A stretch of DNA of 20,657 bases, from contig JASMDC010000050.1 of NCBI GenBank assembly GCA_030753015.1, positions 1 to 20,657 on the forward strand, in the 5' to 3' direction. The notes under the pieces are model-generated. The model searched no databases. It was not told the DNA's origin and was given only the letters and a program-made list of their open reading frames with translations. This DNA comes from Candidatus Undinarchaeales archaeon (lineage in GTDB: Archaea > SpSt-1190 > JASMDC01). Below are positions 4,403-20,657 of this stretch, in pieces (the first letter of the stretch is position 1; every line of letters begins with the position of its first letter). Position numbers and translations under genes: made by a program.

Positions 4403-6688
4403 ATGCCTACAAAGAAGCTCACCAAGAAAGAGATCGCTGAGATCGAGGAGGAGCTCGTCGCCGTCGAGGAGAGGCTCGACGACATGAACGAGGTGATCAC
4501 TCAACGGGAGTCGGCCACCGATCCGTGGATGATCACATCCCTATTGCTCGCTTTCATCCTTGTCATCGGTGTAATGGGATTCAGGGGCGAAGGATTCGCC
4601 TTCCAGCCCGGCACCAGCGGTGGAGGCATCACCCTCCAGCAGGTGCAGAACCTCGCCATCGACATGCGAGCTCGTGGTCTCTCCGAGACCGAGGTGGCCG
4701 AGGGACTGGGCATCCTCGGCATCGACGTCTCGACCATCGCTTCCATCGTGGAGGCACCAAAGGCGACACCTCCGACCGCTACCGTCACTCCGACCGCTAG
4801 ACCGGAACCTACGAAGGTCGCCCCCACGCCCGCCCCCGAGGTGGATGAAGGGACGGCCGTGGTGACCATCATCGAGTTCTCCGATTTCGAGTGCCCCTTC
4901 TGCGGAAGGGCCCATCCCACGATCGAGCAGATCAAGAAGGAGTACGGGAGCAAGCTCAAGCATATCTTCAAGCACTTCCCGCTCAGCTTCCATCCATTCG
5001 CACAGAAGGCCGCCGAAGCGGCCGAGTGCGCCCGTGACCAGGGCAAGTTCTGGGAGATGTACAACACCCTCTTCGACAATTCCAAGGCGCTCGGGGAGAG
5101 CGATATCAAGGGGTACGCCGCCGAGCTGGGATTCGACATGGACGAGTTCAACGAGTGCTACGACAGCGGTATCAAGGATAAGATCGTGTTGGAGGACTTC
5201 ACGGAGGGCCAGTCCCGCGGCGTCTCCGGCACCCCCGCCTTCTTCATCCAGGGCACGACCGAGGACGGCAGCATCATAGAGGAGTCCATCCAGGGCGCGC
5301 AGCCCATCGAGGTCTTCAGGGACACCATCGACATGATGATCGGAGGTCAACGGCCCACGGACGAGGACCCTGCCATGGAGATCGTGGTCGTGAACGACAA
5401 GGAATGCGACTCGTGCGACCCGACCCAGATCCTGACCATCCTCAAGACGCAGCTCTTCCCCAAGGCGACCAGCCGGATCATCGACATCTCGTCCGACGAG
5501 GGCGCCGCCTTGGTGAAAGACCTCAAGCTCAAGGTGGTCCCGTCCTACCTCTTCCCCAAGGACGTGCTCACTGCCAGCCATAACTACATCAAGCTCCAGG
5601 ACATGCTCGAGGACAAGGGCGAGTGGCTCACCATCGTGCCCGGTGCCACCGGTGCCGGCCGGTACCTCGAACCGCCGTCGGTGGACGATGATCCGAGCAA
5701 GGGTCCTGCGGACGCGCCCGTCACCATCATCGAGTTCACGGACTTCCAGTGCCCGTTCTGCAAGCGTGGTACCGACATCGTCTATCAGATCATCGACACG
5801 TACGGTGACCAGGTACGGGTAGTGATTCGCGACTTCCCGCTCGCTGCTCTCCATCCCGATGCGCCCCTGGCCCACGAGGCGGCCGAGTGCGCCGACGAGC
5901 AGGGCAAGTTCTGGGAGATCCATGACAAGATATTCGCCAACCAGGCCGACGTCTCCATCGCCACGTTGAAGGGCTATGCCAATGACCTGGGCCTCGACAT
6001 GGACCGGTTCAACGCCTGCCTCGACGGCGGCGCCATGAAGGCCGAGATCGACGCTGACATGGCCGCCGGGAGGGAGTACGGCGTGTCCGGGACGCCCGCG
6101 TTCTTCATCAACGGCCTGATGCTGGCCGGCGCGCAACCGTTCGAGAACTTCGCCTCGATCATTGACGCCCAGCTAGAGAAGGCCGGTGCGGCCCCGGCAG
6201 CGCCCGCGGAGCCCACTGCGACACCCGCTCCAGCCGAGCCGTCAGAGGGAGAGGCCACTCCCGCTCCCGAGGCGACGCCCGAGCCCACCCCGGTGCCAAC
6301 AGGCCGGGCGGCGGACCTGGCAGCAGCGGCCTACGTCGGTAACACCGCGGCCGACAGCGCGCTTGCTGAAGCGTGCAAGAGCTGGATGTACAGCGACTGG
6401 GAGACGCTGCCCGAGACAGAGCACCCCCTGGGCGTGCTCGCCACGCGCATCGTCATGCCTGGTGACACTCGCGTGCTCACCGAGGACGAGTACCTCGCCG
6501 AGAAGGACCTCACCAAGTGCGACTGCATGGTGTTCCTCAAGAACAGGGGCGGTATCTCCGATTCCGAGGTCCGCGCGCCCTTCGCTGCCGAGACCGACTG
6601 CTCCGCATGGGGCCACGCGCGAGGGTGCGAGCTGCTCTGCTACGGTGACGGCGAGGACGAGTGCAAGGCTGCCCACGGGTGCGCCTAG
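4403..6688 (+). CDS. Membrane-anchored triple thioredoxin-fold (DsbA-CxxC-DsbA) fusion protein
   Basis: This 761-residue protein is a multi-domain thiol-disulfide oxidoreductase candidate. Residues 1-38 are charged and coiled-coil-like; 44-60 form a membrane anchor. After a Thr/Pro linker (about 120-147) comes a DsbA-like domain with CPFC at 164-167 and the cis-Pro motif GVSGTPAFF near 273-281. A smaller thioredoxin-like unit (about 325-412) has CDSC at 335-338. A second DsbA-like domain has CPFC at 450-453 and GVSGTPAFF at 560-568. A Pro/Ala/Glu linker (about 597-633) leads to a C-terminal region of about 125 residues with nine Cys, which I do not recognise. The two DsbA units are clearly related (QGKFWE and GxPAFF shared). 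It probably acts outside the membrane on exported cysteines. It is followed seven bases later by trmJ. Confidence 0.9.
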   Translation: MPTKKLTKKEIAEIEEELVAVEERLDDMNEVITQRESATDPWMITSLLLAFILVIGVMGFRGEGFAFQPGTSGGGITLQQVQNLAIDMRARGLSETEVAEGLGILGIDVSTIASIVEAPKATPPTATVTPTARPEPTKVAPTPAPEVDEGTAVVTIIEFSDFECPFCGRAHPTIEQIKKEYGSKLKHIFKHFPLSFHPFAQKAAEAAECARDQGKFWEMYNTLFDNSKALGESDIKGYAAELGFDMDEFNECYDSGIKDKIVLEDFTEGQSRGVSGTPAFFIQGTTEDGSIIEESIQGAQPIEVFRDTIDMMIGGQRPTDEDPAMEIVVVNDKECDSCDPTQILTILKTQLFPKATSRIIDISSDEGAALVKDLKLKVVPSYLFPKDVLTASHNYIKLQDMLEDKGEWLTIVPGATGAGRYLEPPSVDDDPSKGPADAPVTIIEFTDFQCPFCKRGTDIVYQIIDTYGDQVRVVIRDFPLAALHPDAPLAHEAAECADEQGKFWEIHDKIFANQADVSIATLKGYANDLGLDMDRFNACLDGGAMKAEIDADMAAGREYGVSGTPAFFINGLMLAGAQPFENFASIIDAQLEKAGAAPAAPAEPTATPAPAEPSEGEATPAPEATPEPTPVPTGRAADLAAAAYVGNTAADSALAEACKSWMYSDWETLPETEHPLGVLATRIVMPGDTRVLTEDEYLAEKDLTKCDCMVFLKNRGGISDSEVRAPFAAETDCSAWGHARGCELLCYGDGEDECKAAHGCA

Positions 6689-10038: not shown

Positions 10039-10052
10039 AAAATTATAAATAC
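10039..10052 (+). promoter_or_regulatory. TATA-type promoter of the pilus-like gene cluster
   Basis: AAAATTATAAATAC is a strong AT-rich box in an otherwise G+C-rich region. Transcription would begin near 10072, giving a leader of about 20-30 bases containing AGAGGG at 10076-10081. It is the only clear promoter before the first four genes of the cluster. Confidence 0.6.
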
Positions 10053-10093: not shown

Positions 10094-10609
10094 GTGATTG
10101 TCATGGCCGATCAAGCTGAATACGAGCTCATCCCATTAACTCCCATCCGCAGGATGGAAAAGGAGATCGCGGACCTTAAGAAGAACAAGGAAGGCGGCTC
10201 CACAGCGTTCCTCGTCAACGAGATCGTGGACATCCTCAAGATGAACCAGAAGATCGTCGATGACATGGTCCGCCTCCACGGTGATCTTGTGAGCAAGCTC
10301 TCACGCACCACCGACCGCATCGACCGGCTAGTGACCTCCATGGACAAGCTCGTCGAGATCCTGGGCGAAGCCACCGAGGCCGAACTGGCCGGTGAGAGCG
10401 GCGGCTACCGTGGCGGTGGCGGCGGCGGTGGTGGCGGCGGCGTAGCCGATGAGAAGATGGACAAGGTCATCGAGCAGAACGCGGCCCTCATCAACAGCCT
10501 CAAGGTCATCTCGGGTGAACTGGGCAAGCTCGGTGAGGTCGAGAAGGGACTCCAGAAGCTAGAGAACCTGGAGAAGGAATCACAAAGGGCCGGTCGACGA
10601 GGGAGGTAG
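10094..10609 (+). CDS. Coiled-coil protein with polyglycine linker, first gene of pilus-like cluster
   Basis: The protein is 171 residues from GTG 10094, or 168 from ATG 10103; the GAGGG near 10077 is closer to the GTG, while the ATG gives the more usual MADQ start. Counting from the ATG, residues 7-90 are charged heptad-like helices (MEKEIADLKKNKE, DRIDRLVTSMDKLVEIL), then a run of ten glycines at 104-113 forms a flexible linker, then a second helical unit (115-168) ends in the basic RAGRRGR. There is no signal peptide, membrane segment or Cys, so it is probably cytoplasmic. I recognise no family. Position as first gene, five bases before a pilin-like gene, suggests an accessory or scaffold role at the cytoplasmic side of the secretion machine, possibly a loose analogue of archaellum ArlCDE; that is inference. 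The ATPase of the cluster has similar polyglycine linkers. Confidence 0.85.
   Translation: MIVMADQAEYELIPLTPIRRMEKEIADLKKNKEGGSTAFLVNEIVDILKMNQKIVDDMVRLHGDLVSKLSRTTDRIDRLVTSMDKLVEILGEATEAELAGESGGYRGGGGGGGGGGVADEKMDKVIEQNAALINSLKVISGELGKLGEVEKGLQKLENLEKESQRAGRRGR
10602..10607 (+). promoter_or_regulatory. Perfect Shine-Dalgarno GGAGGT for the first pilin-like gene
   Basis: GGAGGT overlaps the end of the coiled-coil gene (stop at 10607-10609) and lies seven bases before the ATG at 10615. It supports that start and translation from a shared transcript. Confidence 0.75.
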
Positions 10610-10614
10610 GTTCC

Positions 10615-11706
10615 ATGACACGGTGGACGCGGGGTCAAGTCAACATCATGTCGGCAGTGCTCATCACGGGCATCCTGCTGGCCGCCGTGGCAGGTACCTA
10701 TATTTGGGCACAGCCCATCATGCAGAAAGCGACAGACCAGCGTCGCATCGAGTACGCCAAGGAGATGCTCTCGTCGATCAATGACGGCGTGGAGAACGCC
10801 GCCATGCAGAAGCAGCAGAAGGTCGTACCGGTCGAGTACGACCGCGGCGTCCTAAAGCTCATAACCGAGGCGGGTACCGGCGAGTACGTGCTCCAGTACG
10901 AGATCGAGACCAACATCCCCATGCTCGCGTCAACTGCATGGGTCCCACTTACGGGGACCGAACTGCCGTTGCAGGAGAACGCGAAGTTCGTGACCGCCTG
11001 GTGCTACAACATGGGGCATCAGGGCGATGATCAGAAGAAGTCCTCGCGTGACGCACAGTGCAAGAACATGGACTCCTGGGAGTTCTGGAAGGCCTTCGAC
11101 CTTACCGGGAACGGCGATTACGTCCCCTACTTCACTAGCTGCAAGGAGCTTGGAGGCCCCAGCTACTTCGGTGTCTCGGACAACATCATCACCATCGAGT
11201 CGAACGAGTACCGCGCGCTCGTGTGCGACACGGGCCGACAGTCCTATTCCTGCTTGGTGCCGTGGAAGAACGGCGAACTCGAAGTGAACGAGAACGGCTG
11301 CCAGGGCGCTTGGAAGACCAAGAACGACCGCGTCACGATCGGGGACAGCAAGTGGCAGGTGGCCGAACTGAATACCGGCGACATGGTCGCCATCGGCCTG
11401 CGTCTCCTCTCAGGGTACGTGGACAAGATGGGTATGAAGGGCAAGAGCTCGCCCTGTGTCATCATCGCCCGCTCGCTGAGCCCCTCGCAGAACCGGCGCG
11501 CGATCATCCGTATCAAGTGCCGGCCAATCTACGACTCACAGGACAACATCGCCTACGACATCAAGCTCAAGCCCGGACAGATCACGCTCGCACCGGCGGG
11601 ATCGCATACGATCACGATCCGTTACCGGTTCGACAAAACCCTGCCACCAAAGCCAGGGGAGCAATGGACGACCAAGGAGATTACTGTCGAGGTGTCCCTG
11701 GACTAG
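10615..11706 (+). CDS. Large pilin-like / archaellin-fold secreted protein, eight cysteines
   Basis: This 363-residue protein begins with MTRWTRGQ followed by a hydrophobic helix (about 9-31, VNIMSAVLITGILLAAVAGTYIW) and a polar helix continuing to about 65. This is the layout of an archaeal type IV pilin-like protein: a short basic leader, RGQ processing motif and a helix that packs into a filament core or stays as an anchor. The rest is a beta-rich extracellular domain of about 300 residues with eight cysteines, an even number suited to four disulfides. The C-terminal part (PGQITLAPAGSHTITIRYRF...) looks like a beta-sandwich. It is bigger than typical archaeal pilins, so it may be a minor, tip or adhesive subunit rather than the major one. 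Cleavage needs a prepilin peptidase not present in the window. Confidence 0.75.
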   Translation: MTRWTRGQVNIMSAVLITGILLAAVAGTYIWAQPIMQKATDQRRIEYAKEMLSSINDGVENAAMQKQQKVVPVEYDRGVLKLITEAGTGEYVLQYEIETNIPMLASTAWVPLTGTELPLQENAKFVTAWCYNMGHQGDDQKKSSRDAQCKNMDSWEFWKAFDLTGNGDYVPYFTSCKELGGPSYFGVSDNIITIESNEYRALVCDTGRQSYSCLVPWKNGELEVNENGCQGAWKTKNDRVTIGDSKWQVAELNTGDMVAIGLRLLSGYVDKMGMKGKSSPCVIIARSLSPSQNRRAIIRIKCRPIYDSQDNIAYDIKLKPGQITLAPAGSHTITIRYRFDKTLPPKPGEQWTTKEITVEVSLD

Positions 11707-11715
11707 GTCCCAGCG

Positions 11716-12339
11716 ATGGCGAACCGCCGACGCTCCACTTGCCGACCACAAGGGCCGCGCTCCCGAATACTCACGCACGAGCGTGGACAGCAGCTGATCA
11801 TCGAGGCAGTCCTGACCTTCGGCGCCGGCGTCATGGTGCTTGGGATGGTGGCGACTGTGTTCTCATTCACGAACGAGAAGGTCGTCACGATCCTTATCGA
11901 GCGGTACATCGAAGAGATCGCGGACTACACGGCCTCGGCGATCCTCATCGTGTACGAATCGGGCAAACACTTGAAATCGCCGACACCGGATCCCATCGCT
12001 GTCTCGGAGCTCCGTCTCGACATCCCCGAGATGCTGGCGAACGAGCCCTACCTCATGCACGTGTCCCACGACCGGCGAAAGAAGGCAATCGTGGTGTCCG
12101 TCAAGATCCCGGGTAAGGCGCGCAAGGACGTGCTCGTCACCGGTCTTGAGGACGTTAACGTCTCCTGCTGCAATTGTAAGAGCTGGAAGGAGGAATCTTC
12201 GACGAGCGAGTTCTATGGTGAGATATTCCCCATTGCTTTCCCCAGCGGAAGACAGATGGTAGTGCGTCTCTTCAAGCCGTATCGCATGATCGGGTCCGAT
12301 AAAGTATATAACGCATTATGTATTGAAGAGTTACAGTAG
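11716..12339 (+). CDS. Second pilin-like protein (ArlF/ArlG-like layout)
   Basis: This 207-residue protein has a basic N-terminus of about 23 residues, then HERGQQLIIEAVLTFGAGVMVLGMVATVFSF, an RGQ-type pilin-like signal with a Glu shortly after the Gln, and a hydrophobic helix to about residue 52. A charged helix (NEKVVTILIERYIEEIADY) and a beta-rich domain follow. The DVNVSCCNCKSW motif holds three cysteines, with another near the C-terminus (ALCIEEL). Size and layout resemble the ArlF/ArlG stator proteins of archaella, or a minor pilin, but no sequence signature decides between them. No shorter start exists near the RGQ motif, so the ATG at 11716, nine bases after the previous stop, is used. 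A hairpin overlaps its stop codon. Confidence 0.75.
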   Translation: MANRRRSTCRPQGPRSRILTHERGQQLIIEAVLTFGAGVMVLGMVATVFSFTNEKVVTILIERYIEEIADYTASAILIVYESGKHLKSPTPDPIAVSELRLDIPEMLANEPYLMHVSHDRRKKAIVVSVKIPGKARKDVLVTGLEDVNVSCCNCKSWKEESSTSEFYGEIFPIAFPSGRQMVVRLFKPYRMIGSDKVYNALCIEELQ

Positions 12340-12361
12340 CCACGCGGTTCTCGCTGGCTAC
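12336..12361 (+). promoter_or_regulatory. Hairpin over a stop codon, upstream of the secretion ATPase
   Basis: GTAGCCA (12336-12342) pairs perfectly with TGGCTAC (12355-12361), with an inner GCG/CGC extension past a single bulged base. It contains the TAG stop of the second pilin-like gene and ends just before GAGGG, the likely ribosome-binding site of the ATPase GTG at 12378. A TATA-like AAAGTATATAAC at 12301-12312 precedes it, within the upstream coding end. It could be an RNA processing, attenuation or translation-control site. Confidence 0.4.
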
Positions 12362-12377
12362 GAGGGCTGATGCGGCC

Positions 12378-14378
12378 GTGAAAAAGAAGAAGCGCATCGT
12401 TGATGGCATCGTCAAGGGTAAGCTCTCTCTCATTAGACGGAAGACCCACCGCGACAGGAAGCGCATCATCCGTGCATCGATCAATCCCGTGAACGTCGAT
12501 GTCGCACCGGCACCGGTCATCGTGACCGGCGGCGGAGGTGGCGGGGTATCGAGCCCCGCTGTCGAGGCAGCCATCCTCAAGATCCTCCAGCGCATGGACT
12601 CCATGCCCGCACCCGCACCGAGGAGCAGCGCAAGCGATGACGGGCTCATCGAGGAGTTCGGCTTCCAGCAGGAAGCGCTACTCGAAGAGATGCGCGCCAT
12701 GCGCCAGCAATCGGGTGGTGGAGGTGGCGGGAGCGAGGTGAAGATCGCGTCCAAGAAGAGATCAGGAACCCATGGCAAGAATCAGGAGGGCATCAAGCTC
12801 CTCACCCTGGAAGAGATGGCCGAGCTCGGGCTGGAGGACCGATTCGAAGAGATCCAGCGGGCGAAAATCGAGGAGTCCCAGGAGCTCAGGAACGTCAACC
12901 AGACGTACCCGCTCATGCAGAGCCCGCTGAACACGGAGCGCACCCTGACGTGGGCCAACATCCGCTACAACCAGCAGACCAAGTCACTGGTCTATACGGT
13001 CATCGAACCGCAGATGTCCGAAGAGGAGGAACAGGTCTTCAAGGAGATTCAAGTGAAGCTCCAGGAGCGCATGGACGTCAACTTCGAGGGCGGGGGCGCG
13101 TTCCAGCAGGAGTTCCTCGTCAACAAGGTGTACGAGTTCCTAAACTACTTCGGCTACGTCCTCTCCCCAGACCAGCTGGAGAAGGTCATCTATTTCGTGG
13201 TCCGCGACTTCATCGGGCTCAACAACCTCGAGCCGCTGCTCCATGATCCCGCTATTGAGGACATCTCGTGCGACGGCTTCAGCATCCCGGTCTTCATTGC
13301 TCACAACAATCCCCTCTTCGGAGAGATCGCCACGACAGTGGTGTTCGAGGACAAGGAACTACTGGACAACTTCGTCATGAAGCTCTCTCAGCGGTGTGGT
13401 AGGGCCATCTCAGTGGCCGACCCCCTCCTCGACGGAGCACTGCCTGACGGGAGCCGTGTCCAGGCGACCTTCGGTACCGACATATCCAAGCGCGGTTCCA
13501 ACTTCACCATCCGTAAGTTCTCCAAGGAGCCGGTCACGCCTATCAAGATGGTGCGGTCCGGCACTGTCACTCCCGAGGTGCTTGCCTATCTATGGCTCGC
13601 GGTCGAGGCTGGCAAGTCGGTCCTCGTGTCCGGAGCGACCGCCACAGGGAAGACGACCATGCTCAACGCCATCTCCCTCTTCATCAAGCCAGAGCAGAAG
13701 ATCGTCTCTATCGAGGACACGGCGGAGCTGCGTCTGCCCCACCCCAACTGGCTGCCCCAGGTGGCACGGGCCGCTGCTGGCTCGCATGGTGTGGGTGGCG
13801 TATCGATGTTCGACCTGCTCAAGGCCGCACTGCGCCAGCGCCCTGATTACCTCCTAGTGGGGGAGGTGCGTGGCGACGAGGCAGCCATCATGTTCCAGGC
13901 CATGTCAACAGGCCACGCGGGGATGAGCACCATCCACGCAGAGAACATGGAGAAGCTCATCAATCGTCTCACCACAAAGCCGATCAGCCTTCCTGCGGTG
14001 CTCCTCGAGAGCCTTGACATCGTCTTGTTCCTCATCCGTGCACGGCTGGGCAAGCATTACGTGCGCCGCGTCAACCAGCTCGTGGAGATCGCGGGAGTGG
14101 ACGGGGACACCAAGGAGGTCCAGACCCGGTTCGTGTTCGAGTGGGATCCCACCGAAGACACCATCGCTGCGCTCGAGGAGAGCGTGGTCATGGAGAAGGT
14201 CAGGGTCAACCGGGGTATCTCCAAAGAGGAGATCCTCGCCGAGCTCTACAGGCGTGCGAAGCTCCTGGAATGGCTCAACGACAACAACATCGTGGACTTC
14301 GAGCGAGTATCGAAGTTCATCGAGACCTACTACGTGGACCCCGAGAGGATCAGGCAGTGGACTCGCGGTGAGGTCTAA
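12378..14378 (+). CDS. Type IV pilus/archaellum-type secretion ATPase (VirB11/ArlI/TadA family) with N-terminal extension
   Basis: This 666-residue protein is the motor ATPase that drives filament assembly or export in type II/IV and archaellum systems. Walker A is GATATGKT at 419-426; the Walker B-like LLVGEVRGDEA is near 492-502, followed by the STGHAGMSTIHAE His box. The N-terminal-domain segment DGALPDGSRVQATF also fits the family. The first 135 residues are unusual: MKKKKR and a cluster of basic residues to about 35, two six-glycine linkers (51-56 and 113-118), and a helix between them (SPAVEAAILKILQRMDSM). They resemble a flexible tether to membrane, nucleic acid or partner. A GTG start at 12378 is used; the ATG at 12370 is in another frame and hits a stop. 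The stop overlaps the next gene's ATG by one base. Confidence 0.92.
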   Translation: MKKKKRIVDGIVKGKLSLIRRKTHRDRKRIIRASINPVNVDVAPAPVIVTGGGGGGVSSPAVEAAILKILQRMDSMPAPAPRSSASDDGLIEEFGFQQEALLEEMRAMRQQSGGGGGGSEVKIASKKRSGTHGKNQEGIKLLTLEEMAELGLEDRFEEIQRAKIEESQELRNVNQTYPLMQSPLNTERTLTWANIRYNQQTKSLVYTVIEPQMSEEEEQVFKEIQVKLQERMDVNFEGGGAFQQEFLVNKVYEFLNYFGYVLSPDQLEKVIYFVVRDFIGLNNLEPLLHDPAIEDISCDGFSIPVFIAHNNPLFGEIATTVVFEDKELLDNFVMKLSQRCGRAISVADPLLDGALPDGSRVQATFGTDISKRGSNFTIRKFSKEPVTPIKMVRSGTVTPEVLAYLWLAVEAGKSVLVSGATATGKTTMLNAISLFIKPEQKIVSIEDTAELRLPHPNWLPQVARAAAGSHGVGGVSMFDLLKAALRQRPDYLLVGEVRGDEAAIMFQAMSTGHAGMSTIHAENMEKLINRLTTKPISLPAVLLESLDIVLFLIRARLGKHYVRRVNQLVEIAGVDGDTKEVQTRFVFEWDPTEDTIAALEESVVMEKVRVNRGISKEEILAELYRRAKLLEWLNDNNIVDFERVSKFIETYYVDPERIRQWTRGEV

Positions 14379-15337
14379 TGAGCTTTGCAGAAGAATACCT
14401 TCGCTTCTCTTACTCGTTGTTCGGCAGCCTCGTCGAGTCGTACGGTTCGTCGCTTGCCGACATCCGCAACGACCTGCGTAAGGCGAGCATCCGCCTGACG
14501 GCCGAGGAGTACGTGTCCGCTGCCATCATGAGCTCTCTGATCCTGCCCATCCTCCTTCTGGTACCCACTGGCGTGCTGATGATCCTCCTTGATCCCTTCG
14601 CACCCAACACCATTATCATCGTCGCGTTCGGCGCGGTGTTCGGCTGGACGTTCATGTTCGTGGCGGTGCTGACGATGTTCTATATCTACCCTGCGATCAT
14701 CGTCTCGGGGAAGAAGAAGTCCATCGACAACATCCTGCCGTTCGCAACGACGTACCTGGCCACCATGGCCGGATCGGGGATGCCGCCGCAGAACATCTTC
14801 AAGATCATGTCGAAGTTCGACCAGTACGGGGACGTGAGCCAGGAGGCAAAGCTCATCACCCGTGACATCGAGATCTTCGGTATGGACGTGCCCACCGCCC
14901 TCGAGCGGGCCTCGGGACGCCAGGCATCCGAACAGTTCAAGGACCTGCTGTGGGACATCAAGGACACCATCACCACGGGCGGTGACCTCAAGATCCTCCT
15001 CCACGAGAAGTCACGAGAGTACATGAACGTATACCGGCGATCACTGGACTCCTACGTGGAGCAGCTGTCGATGTTGGTGGAGATGTACATCACTGTCGTC
15101 ATCGTAGGATCTGTGTTCTTCGTGGTCATGTCGGCGGTCATGACGGTCATGGGCGGGGGGGACATCATGCCGCTACTACAGAAGGGCATGTTGATAATGC
15201 TGCCGCTGGCGGCTGACGGATTCATCGTCATGGTCATGACCATGTCGCCCGTGGCAAAGGCAGACAGCACATACGAGATACTCATTCTGGGTGCGCTCAC
15301 CTTCGTCGTCATCATCTACGTGGTGGTGTCCACATGA
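14378..15337 (+). CDS. T2SSF-domain platform membrane protein 1 (ArlJ/TadC-like)
   Basis: This 319-residue protein is an inner-membrane platform protein of type II/IV secretion, the partner that contacts the ATPase. After a cytoplasmic N-terminus there are two hydrophobic segments (about 46-71 and 78-108), then a cytoplasmic T2SSF helical bundle (about 115-230, with FATTYLATMAGSGMPPQNIF and TTGGDLKILLHEKSREY), then three membrane segments (about 233-258, 265-289, 299-318). The GGDL motif is usual in this family. Its ATG overlaps the ATPase stop as TAATG, a sign of tight translational coupling. ArlJ often has two T2SSF units in one chain; here each unit is a separate gene, as in Tad-like systems that have two platform proteins. 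Confidence 0.88.
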   Translation: MSFAEEYLRFSYSLFGSLVESYGSSLADIRNDLRKASIRLTAEEYVSAAIMSSLILPILLLVPTGVLMILLDPFAPNTIIIVAFGAVFGWTFMFVAVLTMFYIYPAIIVSGKKKSIDNILPFATTYLATMAGSGMPPQNIFKIMSKFDQYGDVSQEAKLITRDIEIFGMDVPTALERASGRQASEQFKDLLWDIKDTITTGGDLKILLHEKSREYMNVYRRSLDSYVEQLSMLVEMYITVVIVGSVFFVVMSAVMTVMGGGDIMPLLQKGMLIMLPLAADGFIVMVMTMSPVAKADSTYEILILGALTFVVIIYVVVST

Positions 15338-15349
15338 CTACTGCCGGAA

Positions 15350-15364
15350 CGATGGTTTTTTATT
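15350..15364 (+). repeat. First copy of CGATGGTTTTTTATT, probable terminator or promoter element
   Basis: This 15-base sequence occurs here and, exactly, at 16686-16700. Both copies lie 12-16 bases after the stop of a T2SSF gene. A run of six T suits archaeal U-rich termination; the AT-rich core could also serve as a promoter for the next gene. Confidence 0.45.
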
Positions 15365-15374
15365 CTCGCGACGC

Positions 15375-15381
15375 GTATAAT
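15375..15381 (+). promoter_or_regulatory. Possible internal TATA box before the second T2SSF gene
   Basis: GTATAAT lies about 48 bases before the GTG at 15426. It predicts a start of transcription near 15403 and a leader of about 20 bases carrying the AGGAGG site. Together with the T-run just upstream it suggests that the second T2SSF gene can be transcribed separately. Confidence 0.4.
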
Positions 15382-15411
15382 CTACATAGGGACACTTTTA
15401 TGCGACCACGT

Positions 15412-15418
15412 CAGGAGG
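15412..15418 (+). promoter_or_regulatory. Shine-Dalgarno that selects GTG 15426 as the start
   Basis: CAGGAGG lies seven bases before GTG 15426, an ideal spacing. A TTG at 15420 in the same frame is only one base away from the site and is therefore not the start. Confidence 0.7.
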
Positions 15419-15425
15419 ATTGCCT

Positions 15426-16670
15426 GTGAGCCTACGCCAGAAGCTTCTTGAGCTGCGCGAGGACAAGAAGATGCTGACTGTCATCTTCGGCGCCTTCATC
15501 GGACTCAGCATCATCATGTACGGCGTGTTCATGAAGTTCACGGACCCCGACATGGGGTCCGAGTCGTTCGCATCGATCATCATCGTAGGGGTGATCTCCA
15601 TGGGCGGTCCCTATGCCTTCGTCCAGTACCAGGAGTTCTCCCGTATCCAGAAGATGGAGGAGGCCCTCCCCAACTTCCTGCGATACATCGCAGAAGCGCG
15701 TCGGTCCGGTATGACCATCCCGCATGGTCTGTCCAACGCCGCCAAGACCGATTACGGACCGCTCTCGCCCGAGATCCGGATGATGGCGTCCCAGCTCTCC
15801 TGGGGTATCCCGTTCCCCCATGTCATCGAGATGTTCATCGACCGGAACGACAAGTCGTCGTTCATCCAGCAGTCGATGGGTATCATCATCGAGGCATACC
15901 GCTCGGGAGGAGATGTGGCCGAGACCATGGAATCGGTGGCGCAGGACGCACGACTCGTCAAGGACCTGGAGGCCGAGCAGAAGGCCAAGATGTCGGCACA
16001 GGTCATGATCATGTACGTCATCCATATCATCTTCCTCGTCATCATCTACGCTCTAACCACCATCCTCAAGCCCCTGCTCGTGATGCAGAAGTCCTCGGGT
16101 CTGTCGTCCATGTTCGGTTCATCGGGCGGTAAGTCGCTCACCACCGGCAGCTACCGCACCCTGTTCATGAACATGTGCTACATCGAGGGGATCTACAATG
16201 GCCTCATCGCCGGTGAGATCGGTGACGGCTCGGTGATCGCCGGGTTCAAGCACTCGATGATCATGCTCACGATGTCGATCCTGATGTTCGCCGTGGTCAT
16301 CAAGCCTCAGCCCATGTCCATGACACCACTGGTCGTCTCGTCGTACTTCTACCCCGACGAGCCCATCGTGATGGAGGGCTCGGTGTCCAAGCCCGACGGC
16401 TCGCCGGTGAAACACGCATCCGTTGGCGCGGTCCTCCTGTGCATCACGTCCGAGATGGGGGAGAGCGGGTGTCGTAAAGGTGATATCGTGTGCGAGGTGG
16501 ATTCCAGGTGCGGTATGTGCAAGTGCGTGCGTACCGACAACTGGGGCGTGTACAAGCTGTCGCTCAAGTCACCTGTCGAGGCCGGCGATTACCAGATAAA
16601 GGTGGTCGTCGTCGACGACAAGGTCACCAAGACACGTATCACCGAGTCCTCGGACTTCACCGTCGGTTAG
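15426..16670 (+). CDS. T2SSF-domain platform protein 2 with Cys-rich C-terminal beta domain
   Basis: From the GTG at 15426 this protein has 414 residues. Two membrane segments (about 17-36, 48-67) precede a cytoplasmic T2SSF bundle (about 75-190, with EALPNFLRYIAEARRSGMTIPHGL and YRSGGDVAETMES), then membrane segments at about 191-215, 247-264 and 274-293. The sequence GIYNGLIAGEIGDGSVIAGFKHS (255-277) is characteristic of the ArlJ C-terminus. A domain of about 100 residues follows (311-414), with YPDEPIVMEGSVSKPDGSPVKHASV, a carboxypeptidase-regulatory or Ig-like beta signature, and six cysteines (C339, C349, C356, C362, C365, C367). If the segment at 247-264 crosses the membrane, the tail is outside the cell. 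I know of no standard ArlJ or TadC with such a tail. It stands 88 bases after the first platform gene. Confidence 0.9.
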   Translation: MSLRQKLLELREDKKMLTVIFGAFIGLSIIMYGVFMKFTDPDMGSESFASIIIVGVISMGGPYAFVQYQEFSRIQKMEEALPNFLRYIAEARRSGMTIPHGLSNAAKTDYGPLSPEIRMMASQLSWGIPFPHVIEMFIDRNDKSSFIQQSMGIIIEAYRSGGDVAETMESVAQDARLVKDLEAEQKAKMSAQVMIMYVIHIIFLVIIYALTTILKPLLVMQKSSGLSSMFGSSGGKSLTTGSYRTLFMNMCYIEGIYNGLIAGEIGDGSVIAGFKHSMIMLTMSILMFAVVIKPQPMSMTPLVVSSYFYPDEPIVMEGSVSKPDGSPVKHASVGAVLLCITSEMGESGCRKGDIVCEVDSRCGMCKCVRTDNWGVYKLSLKSPVEAGDYQIKVVVVDDKVTKTRITESSDFTVG

Positions 16671-16671
16671 A

Positions 16672-16700
16672 CACCCTTCCGGGTGCGATGGTTTTTTATT
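16672..16700 (+). terminator. Hairpin plus T-run after the second T2SSF gene, containing the second 15-base repeat
   Basis: CACCC (16672-16676) and GGGTG (16681-16685) form a stem with loop TTCC, followed by CGATGGTTTTTTATT (16686-16700). A hairpin with a T-run directly after a stop codon looks like an intrinsic terminator. In archaea the T-run itself is usually the important part. The 15-base sequence repeats the one at 15350. Confidence 0.5.
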
Positions 16701-16733
16701 GATAGCAGACGTAGGTGCGGCGTGGGAACCGTC

Positions 16734-16784
16734 ATGGAGCTCCGGGAACGGGACCAGAAGCTGCACAAGCTCCAGGTGGGATGA
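16734..16784 (+). other. Possible 16-codon leader ORF before the membrane protein
   Basis: An ATG opens a frame encoding MELRERDQKLHKLQVG and ends three bases before GTG 16788. The end contains GGTGGGATGA, which would also serve as the ribosome-binding site of the next gene. A comparable nine-codon ORF (MRPRQEDCL, 15400-15429) overlaps the start of the second T2SSF gene. Either may be chance. Confidence 0.25.
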
Positions 16785-16787
16785 CAC

Positions 16788-17330
16788 GTGGCCGATGAGC
16801 TCCCCAAACCCCAGGCGCTCGCTCTCACCATCATGGCCGCAGCGGCTGCCGTCATCCTCTCCATCGTCGTCTTCGGTATGAACAGCGCTAATCCCATCAA
16901 ATGGCTCGTTGGCCTGACCGCGATCCCTGGAATACCGTACGCATATGTCAAGGTTACCATGAGGTCACTGGGCGTCCGACCGGGCGATATGAGCGGTGCA
17001 GGACGGATGTGGTTCGCCCACCTTCTATTGATCGTCTTCTCGCTCCTGCTCATCGCCTATCTCGATGATCTCCCGGCACTACAGACGCTCTGGAACCTGG
17101 GTGAGGGTCCTGGGTTGGGGAGGCTTCTGACAAGGGCCGAGCTCGTGGGCGTGCTCGAGCTGCTCTGCTGCTTTGCCGCCGTGTTCAACGGTCTCGCCCT
17201 TGGACAGTGGCGCATCGTGCACTGGTTCTTCACCGGCGAGAGCGAGGATGATGCCTTCAACCGGACAGCGCGGTATGGTGGAAAAATGTTCATGTTAACT
17301 ATGGTCCTGTTCGAAGAGTTCCTCAAGTAG
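16788..17330 (+). CDS. Hypothetical membrane protein, last gene of the pilus-like cluster
   Basis: This 180-residue protein begins at GTG 16788 and has four hydrophobic stretches: LTIMAAAAAVILSIVVFG (about 11-28), PIKWLVGLTAIPGIPYAYV (about 35-53), MWFAHLLLIVFSLLLIAYL (about 68-86), and LVGVLELLCCFAAVFNGLALG (about 116-136). The C-terminus FNRTARYGGKMFMLTMVLFEEFLK may form a fifth amphipathic helix. I recognise no family. It follows the second T2SSF gene by 117 bases, beyond a probable terminator, so it may be a separate transcript or partly read through. Its location suggests, but does not prove, a membrane accessory role for the pilus-like system. It ends two bases from the convergent transporter gene. 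Confidence 0.75.
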   Translation: MADELPKPQALALTIMAAAAAVILSIVVFGMNSANPIKWLVGLTAIPGIPYAYVKVTMRSLGVRPGDMSGAGRMWFAHLLLIVFSLLLIAYLDDLPALQTLWNLGEGPGLGRLLTRAELVGVLELLCCFAAVFNGLALGQWRIVHWFFTGESEDDAFNRTARYGGKMFMLTMVLFEEFLK

Positions 17331-18650: not shown

Positions 18651-20657
18651 CTAGAGCTTGGAGCCGCCGGTCTCGATCACGATGTCCACGATCTCGGATG
18701 ACAACCCCGTGATCATCTCCTCCTGCTCGCCATAGACCGTGATCGCGAGCTCGTAGGTATTGACATCATAGGAGAACTTCGTGCCGATGAAGTTCTTGGA
18801 GTATGCGCCGCGTGCCGAGAAGGCGACCAGATAGGTGTTCCCGTCGGGCGAGTAGGTCTCGCCCACCTTGTGCATCGCAGAGCACTTGCCCTGGAGCTTG
18901 TCGAACACCTCCTGGGGATCGACGGTGAGCTGCATCCGCGTCTTATTGCTCGGCAGGGCCTTGACCTTAGTCTTGAACCCATCGAGGTCCATCGGGACCT
19001 TCTCAAGGAAGGGACAGACCGAGCCCACAGTAACGGGCTGCACCTCGACCATCTTACGGTTGTTCTTGATGTCGTGGTAGATGACCGTGCCGGTGATGTT
19101 GCCGGAGACGCACCGGGTGGGCACGAGCTTGAAGATGGCGCTCTGGAACTCACCACGCTTGAGGGCACCGAGATCGACGCTGTTGCTCCCGCCACCTTCG
19201 ATGCGGAACGCCTTGGGTATGTCGAGGTGCACGGAGACGTCCACCAGTGGGAACGTGGAATTGTTCACTACCTTCACACCGATCTTGATGATGTTGCCCT
19301 CACGCGTGACCCCGCGCTTGACGCTGACCTTCTCTTCTCCGATGGTCTTCCTCTTGAGAACGTTGAGGTAGTAACCAAGCGCACTGATACCGCCGATGAT
19401 GGCGAATAGGAATTCCCAGTACGCGAGGAGGAAACCGACCGGGTTCTCCTGCAGGAGCTGGAGGGCCGGTTTCTCCACAGGCACCTCCTCTTCCTCTTCG
19501 GTGCAGTAGAAGCGATCGGTGTCGCAGTATTCGTCCACCATGCAATGCGCGTCCGATGTACAGCAGACGAATCCCTGGAGGCAACATACCTGGTTGCAGT
19601 TTGCCGAATCGCACTCGGCGTTCGCTGTACAAGCGATCCCAACGTCCTTCTTGACCGTCGCTAGTGCATTCTGGGCCTCGGACTGGGCCTCGAGCACAAG
19701 CTTGTAAGCCTTGGCCACGTCGCCTGCTTCCACGGCACGGGCGGCCTCCGTCAGGACGGTATCGATGGAGAGCGTGTCCAGTCCTTTCTCCTTTGCGCTC
19801 GCGATGAGTGTACGTGCCTTCTCGAGCTCAATAGATACATCAGACTCCGTGATCTGCTCCGTTGGTTTCTCAGTGGGTTCCGGCGACGCACCGATCTCGA
19901 CACAGAAAAAACGCTCCTTGTCGCACTGTTCGGTCTCAAGGCAGTCCGCGTTGGAGACACAGCAGGTCCTACCCTTGAGGCAGCACACCTGCCAGCAGTT
20001 GGCGGAGTGGCAATCGGAGTTCCTGTTGCAGACCTTGCCGTTCTCGAGTAGAACGACGGGCGTTGCCGATGGTGCCGAGGTCGGGACGATCGTCTGCACG
20101 GGCGTGGCAGAAGGTGAGGGTGGCTCCGTCGGTGCTTGGGACGGTACCGGTGTTGCCGTGGGAGTCTCGGTCGGGGAAGGCTCCGGGACCGGCGTGGCAT
20201 CAGGTGCTGCGCAGTAGAAGCGATCGCTGCACTCCTTTTCAGGCGGGCAGTCAGTGTCGGAGATACAACAGGTCTGACCGGCGACACAGCAAACACCGCT
20301 GCCGCAGTTTCCGCCAAGGCAGTCCTCGTCATCGGTGCAGGGGCCACCATTGGCACGCTTGGGGCGTTCGGTGGGTGCCTGAGTAGGGGCTTGCGTGGGC
20401 GCTTGGGTAGGACCTTGAGTGGGCGTTTGGGTCGGTGCTTGAGTGGGCGTTTGGGTAGGACCTTGAGTAGGTGCCTGAGTGGGCGCTTGCGTGGGTGCCG
20501 CGGTGGCAGTCTGCGCCACCTCTCCACATATCTGGACATTGGTCAAAGTGCCGTAAATAACTCCGAACACAGGCCATCCATCGGAATAACCATAGAGGAC
20601 AGTGACATCGTTCAAGCCGGACACGTCCACCTCGAGCTCGCAGTCCTTGGAAGCCTG
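18651..20657 (-). CDS. Cys-rich surface protein with TQxP stalk and membrane anchor, 5' end outside window
   Basis: The frame is open to the right edge, so the N-terminus is missing; 668 codons are visible. Numbering from the GTG at 20630, a stalk of ten TQxP repeats (47-86) is followed by three Cys modules at 98-140, 201-243 and 334-376. Each has ten cysteines, mostly spaced C-x5-C-x4-C-x3-CC-x5-CC-x5-C-x5-C-x6-C, reminiscent of Dickkopf-type Cys-rich domains. A Pro/Thr linker separates modules 1 and 2, and a helical segment (about 265-328) separates 2 and 3. A membrane helix (about 398-424) ends in the basic LKRK, then a beta-rich, CARDB-like segment (about 440-540) and a final region to 659. 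By the positive-inside rule the Cys modules are outside and the C-terminus inside. Adhesion or cell contact is a guess. The stop is at 18651. Confidence 0.88.
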   Translation of the reverse strand, partial: QASKDCELEVDVSGLNDVTVLYGYSDGWPVFGVIYGTLTNVQICGEVAQTATAAPTQAPTQAPTQGPTQTPTQAPTQTPTQGPTQAPTQAPTQAPTERPKRANGGPCTDDEDCLGGNCGSGVCCVAGQTCCISDTDCPPEKECSDRFYCAAPDATPVPEPSPTETPTATPVPSQAPTEPPSPSATPVQTIVPTSAPSATPVVLLENGKVCNRNSDCHSANCWQVCCLKGRTCCVSNADCLETEQCDKERFFCVEIGASPEPTEKPTEQITESDVSIELEKARTLIASAKEKGLDTLSIDTVLTEAARAVEAGDVAKAYKLVLEAQSEAQNALATVKKDVGIACTANAECDSANCNQVCCLQGFVCCTSDAHCMVDEYCDTDRFYCTEEEEEVPVEKPALQLLQENPVGFLLAYWEFLFAIIGGISALGYYLNVLKRKTIGEEKVSVKRGVTREGNIIKIGVKVVNNSTFPLVDVSVHLDIPKAFRIEGGGSNSVDLGALKRGEFQSAIFKLVPTRCVSGNITGTVIYHDIKNNRKMVEVQPVTVGSVCPFLEKVPMDLDGFKTKVKALPSNKTRMQLTVDPQEVFDKLQGKCSAMHKVGETYSPDGNTYLVAFSARGAYSKNFIGTKFSYDVNTYELAITVYGEQEEMITGLSSEIVDIVIETGGSKL
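20373..20492 (-). repeat. Ten tandem 12-base repeats encoding TQxP
   Basis: Ten consecutive copies of a 12-base unit encode Thr-Gln-(Ala/Gly/Thr)-Pro. The copies differ mostly at third codon positions and at the third amino acid, so they are degenerate rather than a fresh expansion. Such Thr/Pro stalks hold a domain away from the membrane and are often glycosylated. The stretch is prone to length variation between strains. Confidence 0.85.

Follow-up and report, generated by a model that had tools for sequence, protein, structure and literature searches.

Introduction

DPANN archaea are mostly host-attached, and their ill-defined pili have gone under the annotation of Tad clusters. This report concerns a six-gene locus with the make-up of a pilus assembly machine (positions 10103-16670), found in a 20,657-nucleotide contig (JASMDC010000050.1; hereafter the window, meaning the whole stretch) from a Candidatus Undinarchaeales archaeon. 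Among described systems, the euryarchaeal type IV pili of clade 2 of Makarova et al. 2016 (PMC4858521), to which we infer the Archaeoglobus ATPase AfGspE (PDB 2oap) to belong, offer the closest likeness, in their ATPase family, platform motif, frequent two-gene platform and minor pilins of matching DUF families. In that survey pilins encoded in trans are the usual archaeal condition, and clade 1 as well as many systems of clade 2 have two tadC genes; gene fission is the origin that Denise et al. 2019 (PMC6668835) give for the two-gene platform of Tad/Epd. DPANN type IV pilus islands, as treated in the available passages of Makarova et al. 2019 (PMC6393860), combine an ATPase and a TadC-type platform with poorly conserved pilins, as does the present locus. 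As to Undinarchaeota themselves, a passage of PMC7414124 states that all of their genomes encode pili and suggests DNA import, and one of PMC9563170 annotates two-gene-platform clusters of Undinarchaeota and Nanohaloarchaeota as Tad. We read the window locus, with a probability of about 0.8, as the assembly machine of an archaeal type IV pilus, in a DPANN branch lying near the euryarchaeal group of AfGspE, and find at its head a conserved protein, designated CC, that is apparently undescribed.

Phylogenetic placement of the ATPase and platform

All seven open reading frames (ORFs) listed for this region in an earlier note on the window were recovered, and the first six, which lie on a single strand with short gaps, form the locus proper in the order CC, P1, P2, ATPase, FA, FB. 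The assembly ATPase (12378-14378, + strand), a member of the archaeal GspE/FlaI superfamily with an added N-terminal low-complexity region, matches the Pfam T2SSE domain (PF00437) at 5e-36 and retains intact Walker A (GATATGKT), Walker B (LLVGEVR), Asp box and His box motifs. Its nearest solved structure is AfGspE, at 393 bits, compared with 302 bits for FlaI and 173 bits for CpaF. To place it, trees were anchored with Sulfolobus FlaI (SaFlaI, PDB 4ii7), AfGspE and CpaF (PDB 8rkd), support being given throughout as Shimodaira-Hasegawa-like approximate likelihood ratio test (SH-aLRT) values from a quick search. Archaellum ATPases, FlaI included, formed one clade with a support of 100, and CpaF fell outside it. 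The window ATPase fell in a branch of 59 rows, most of them from small genomes (95), and, inside it, in a 36-row clade (99) that includes every pilus ATPase linked to CC; a tree run without the anchors also kept the window apart from the archaella. AfGspE stood in an 18-row branch, which met that of the window and a third, small one at a fork of support 85, a value near which branches are not firm. At that same infirm support, the window's clade appears as a sister of the euryarchaeal AfGspE branch rather than a member of it. The platform tree agreed, one branch (99) taking in every CC locus and the archaella standing apart (100). Neither the ATPase nor the platform was thus placed within an archaellum or Tad clade, the outcome that the earlier note had named as refuting its own reading.

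A further locus (L014:10807-13562, contig C55) encodes another ATPase belonging to the window's clade, at 47% identity and with a zinc-ribbon N-terminus; two small helical ORFs flank it, and the 19 kb covered there contain no platform gene.

FA (14378-15337, + strand) and FB (15420-16670, + strand) each carry one T2SSF domain (PF00482; 1e-15 and 1e-18, respectively), FA matching the N-terminal and FB the C-terminal part of models of the archaellum platform protein ArlJ, and together they are equivalent to the two halves of a platform that elsewhere is one protein. A PilB/GspE/FlaI-type ATPase with intact motifs and a T2SSF platform, here formed by two PF00482 proteins, are what archaeal type IV pili have in general. 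The split had previously been taken as Tad-like; two-gene platforms are common in ordinary archaeal pili (PMC4858521), and in the light of both papers cited above the division is not unusual. Nor did the GLIAGEIGxGSVxAGxKHS motif prove to be ArlJ-like, as had been proposed: it occurs in platforms of the euryarchaeal/DPANN pilus group, many of them split and several fused (for instance as GLVAGVMGEGSFSSGIKH in locus L082), and in its strict form in 0 of 16 archaellum platforms, of which 10 end early at the edge of a small locus and the six complete ones reach the motif region and show a divergent form there. The mixture of Tad and ArlJ features accordingly lost its force as an argument for a distinct system, the first feature being common in archaeal pili and the second belonging to the pilus group.

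The extra domain noted earlier in FB is real; it is C-terminal (approximately residues 310-416), Ig-like or carboxypeptidase-regulatory-like, Cys-rich in the window and conserved by alignment in the window's class, with a CarboxypepD_reg match of 8e-6 in a relative (L032). From our reading of the membrane segments, it probably faces outward. In another locus, a gene for an FG-GAP repeat protein, a candidate adhesin, lies 3' of FB (L034:2866-4665). Four Aenigmatarchaeota loci (L008-L011), which form a separate tree branch, carry between ATPase and FA an ORF of 228-239 amino acids encoding a P-loop protein labeled KaiC/ArlH-like from our reading of the start of its sequence.

CC, a conserved protein that tracks the pilus clade

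CC (10103-10609, + strand) is a soluble helical protein of 168 residues. Its ORF extends from 10094 to 10609, and the ATG at 10103 was taken as the start because it is the one used by homologues in the alignment. The homologues share an N-terminal YEVVPxxPIRxLExRI motif (YELIPLTPIRRMEKEI in the window protein, which also has a poly-Gly linker), a helical central part and a tail that varies and is often of low complexity. The protein lacks a hydrophobic membrane segment, matches no Pfam or NCBIfam family, and yields generic coiled coils in profile matches to the PDB; it is likely a coiled coil itself. In lacking a membrane segment, CC differs from the signal-peptide-bearing unknown proteins that are taken as pilins in the passages of PMC6393860 at hand, and neither those passages nor the corresponding ones of PMC7414124 and PMC9563170 describe it.

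A profile search of 394 archaeal genomes returned CC in 80, of which 67, spanning 29 families, matched at E<=1e-18, and the genomes bearing it are mostly of DPANN size. In genomes sampled by ATPase alone, CC was present somewhere in 20 of 24 genomes of the window's clade versus 0 of 28 whose pilus ATPases, although related, are not of that clade (Fisher 8e-11, a value that ignores phylogenetic dependence). No CC was found in the ten genomes of the nearest branch, most of which share the P1-P2-ATPase-FA-FB order, nor in any sampled genome of the AfGspE branch.

The survey of gene order covered about 60 loci chosen around related ATPases, which represent about 50 archaeal families, and another 20 around CC genes. 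The order CC, P1, P2, ATPase, FA and FB, in which a small protein with two transmembrane segments and then one or two GITPVIA pilins may stand between CC and P1, recurs in more than 20 loci, the Aenigmatarchaeota record JACPAE010000001.1 being one named example with a CC locus. In a set of CC genes part of which was picked for having CC, 45 of the 51 distinct CC genes with room for one are directly followed, within 1.5 kb, by a pilin-family gene on their own strand, and 21 of the 28 with 6 kb of room have the ATPase as well. The gene-neighborhood survey that the earlier note had proposed thus revealed the same order in many lineages, as expected of a defined conserved system, and the first gene, which that note could not assign, emerged as a genuine conserved component. 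CC is apparently a new element: conserved, tracking the pilus clade, and undescribed.

Among close relatives, five loci (L032, L033 and L035-L037) keep ATPase, FA and FB followed by other secreted proteins, and have no adjoining CC, P1 or P2. An ORF of about 550 amino acids on the same strand often precedes CC in relatives (e.g. L118, L121, L108 and L007); from its start in L007, it possibly encodes a thermosome subunit.

Pilin-like proteins, major pilins and peptidases

P1 (10615-11706, + strand) and P2 (11716-12339, + strand) both bear the RGQ prepilin motif reported earlier, with cleavage expected between G and Q, at residues 6-8 and 23-25, respectively. Their AlphaFold models, with predicted local distance difference test (pLDDT) scores of 76 and 69.5, consist of a helix some 60 residues long and then beta strands, which in P1 form a beta domain, as in archaeal pilins. 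Each belongs to a family defined by hidden Markov model (HMM) searches, in which 16 of 23 P1 homologues match DUF7289 and 14 of 18 P2 homologues match DUF7266. The P1 profile also matches the archaeal filament subunit PDB 8fk7 (E 0.0017). Our comparison of P1 with the minor pilins of euryarchaeal clade 2 was made with DUF7289, a possible equivalent of the clade's signature minor pilin, arCOG02911. Archaellin fold matches for P2 span its N-terminal helix alone. For P1 and P2, the Foldseek and VIA-align matches were weak and mixed, and do not separate stators of the ArlF/ArlG kind from minor pilins.

The window locus lacks a major pilin, which in most relatives lies between CC and P1. Two pilins with GVTPVIAIILLLMMTVAAAG are encoded on contig C51 of the same genome and a further candidate on C28, and four A24 prepilin peptidase matches above cut-off were found on C42, C117 and C28. 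No A24 peptidase, including the EppA type of the Epd locus, is present on the window contig, so that the absence of a peptidase noted previously holds for the contig and not for the genome, which contains both class III signal prepilins (P1, P2 and the C51 pilins) and the enzyme to process them (the A24 matches). The parts missing from the locus, major pilins and peptidases, are supplied in trans.

That the major pilin lies outside the locus would also suit a pseudopilus for secretion or DNA uptake, in which the same machine would build short filaments instead of a surface pilus. The machine parts alone do not discriminate between the two, and the DNA import suggested in PMC7414124 points the same way; most relatives, however, have major-pilin genes within the locus, and the window's genome encodes several such pilins, which makes a pseudopilus improbable.

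Comparison with the archaellum and the Tad pilus

The ATPase and platform of the window are homologous to those of the archaellum, and the similar positions of a possible cytoplasmic ring component and two pilin-like proteins invite reading the locus as a divergent archaellum for rotary swimming, in which CC would stand for ArlCDE, P1 and P2 for the stators ArlF and ArlG, the ATPase for ArlI, and FA plus FB for ArlJ. Gene order is indeed roughly collinear with arl operons, FlaI is the best NCBIfam model for the ATPase (448 bits), and FA and FB each match one half of the ArlJ model. The FlaI score, however, is below the 550-bit cut-off, above which matches elsewhere reach up to 850 bits, and both the ATPase and the platform lie outside the archaellum clades described above. 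Fused platform, ArlH, archaellins and ArlCDE, all of which archaella have, were not found in the window locus, and neither archaellin (PF01917) nor the ArlDE domain (PF04659) had a match genome-wide at E<=1 in an assembly that is 98.9% complete, bearing out the absences listed in the earlier note. P1 and P2, for their part, bear prepilin motifs and match other families. CC was considered as an ArlCDE homologue, on one HMM match at E 0.0067 in an archaellum locus and on low E-values in single searches, and set aside: the profile match is not significant (hhalign probability of 17%, versus 2% for a reversed control), and the likeness is limited to helical stretches. An archaellum is thus most unlikely, and the earlier assignment to a pilus-type assembly locus rather than an archaellum stands.

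A Tad/Epd-type pilus, as such clusters are annotated in the passage of PMC9563170 cited above, is scarcely credible either: the window does have two platform genes beside a TadA-like ATPase (TIGR03819, 175 bits), but the former are not specific to Tad, the score is below the TadA cut-off of 373, CpaF (the ATPase of the CpaF/TadB/TadC system) lies phylogenetically apart, outside the window's clade, three loci of the same phylum with higher TadA scores (L039-L041) form separate branches in both trees, and no other Tad parts were recognized in the locus.

Locus boundaries and neighboring genes

A probable archaeal TATA element, AAATTATAAATA, precedes CC (10040-10052, + strand), by resemblance to the consensus. 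The locus is closed by a terminator-like hairpin with a T-run (16672-16698, + strand), which is suggestive, similar sites being about equally frequent in shuffled sequences. The seventh gene of the earlier list encodes a membrane protein (16788-17330); it sits beyond this hairpin, neither nine genomes of the same phylum nor any pilus locus searched contains a homologue, and it was therefore dropped as a pilus component.

Elsewhere, the window encodes a TnpB RNA-guided endonuclease (1708-2904, - strand) scoring above the NCBIfam subfamily cut-off, with no transposase seen adjacent; a 761-residue membrane-anchored protein with two tandem DsbA/thioredoxin_4 domains by Pfam (4403-6688); and a large protein (18651-20657, - strand) with PTQAPTQ repeats, repeated Cys-rich CxxDxDC-like motifs and a membrane segment, which has no Pfam match. 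The source assembly, with 5% contamination, amounts to 3.85 Mb, versus 0.6-1.1 Mb in nine other genomes of the phylum; it represents either a relative of small-genome archaea that is unusually large or a mixed bin.

Discussion

Several observations weigh against the placement proposed here and against what we suggest for CC. The window's own P1 and P2 are under Pfam cut-offs (P1 matching DUF7289 only at E 0.08), and their fold searches gave no confident match in Foldseek or VIA-align. A heptad test on the window CC was weak, 40 of 500 shuffles being equally good. ATPase, FA and FB occur with no neighboring CC, P1 or P2 in four small genomes of the class to which the window belongs (G003, G005, G007 and G009), the ones among the 24 sampled clade genomes that have no CC. 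The scaffold role proposed for CC, finally, is drawn from gene position and conservation.

With the locus taken as a type IV pilus machine, a mechanism may be outlined in which the parts, their conservation and their kinship are read from sequence, and cleavage, pilin extraction and the role of P1 and P2 follow known type IV filament biology. Prepilins, including major pilins encoded elsewhere (e.g. on C51), would be cut after KG/RG by A24 peptidases also encoded elsewhere. The hexameric ATPase would then drive the FA-FB platform, and pilins would be lifted into the filament, with P1 and P2 as minor pilins priming or capping it. CC may act around the ATPase and platform as the motor's cytoplasmic scaffold or adaptor, a counterpart by analogy of ArlX or ArlCDE in the archaellum; its position suits such a job, though homology is not demonstrable, and we put the analogy forward tentatively. 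Alternatively, CC could couple the machine to pilin supply or to cell position. In its fuller form, in which CC would serve a major DPANN pilus lineage as a dedicated cytoplasmic motor subunit (a ring or scaffold round ATPase and platform), gained once at the base of the clade and kept by most of its members, the proposal is likewise a possible one at somewhat less than even odds. The pilus likely serves adhesion and cell-cell contact, and possibly twitching or DNA uptake; rotation is not implied.

Of the distinct system proposed earlier, a distinct and conserved pilus branch with one new subunit remains, and a new class of machine does not. The branch is known in kind, an archaeal type IV pilus with an ordinary motor and platform, and CC is apparently an undescribed subunit at the head of its locus. 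The clarity of the clade, the gene order proper to it and a conserved marker absent from the family databases searched provide a means of recognizing this system in genomes, and CC becomes a concrete target for asking whether it binds the ATPase and whether the pilus is lost without it.

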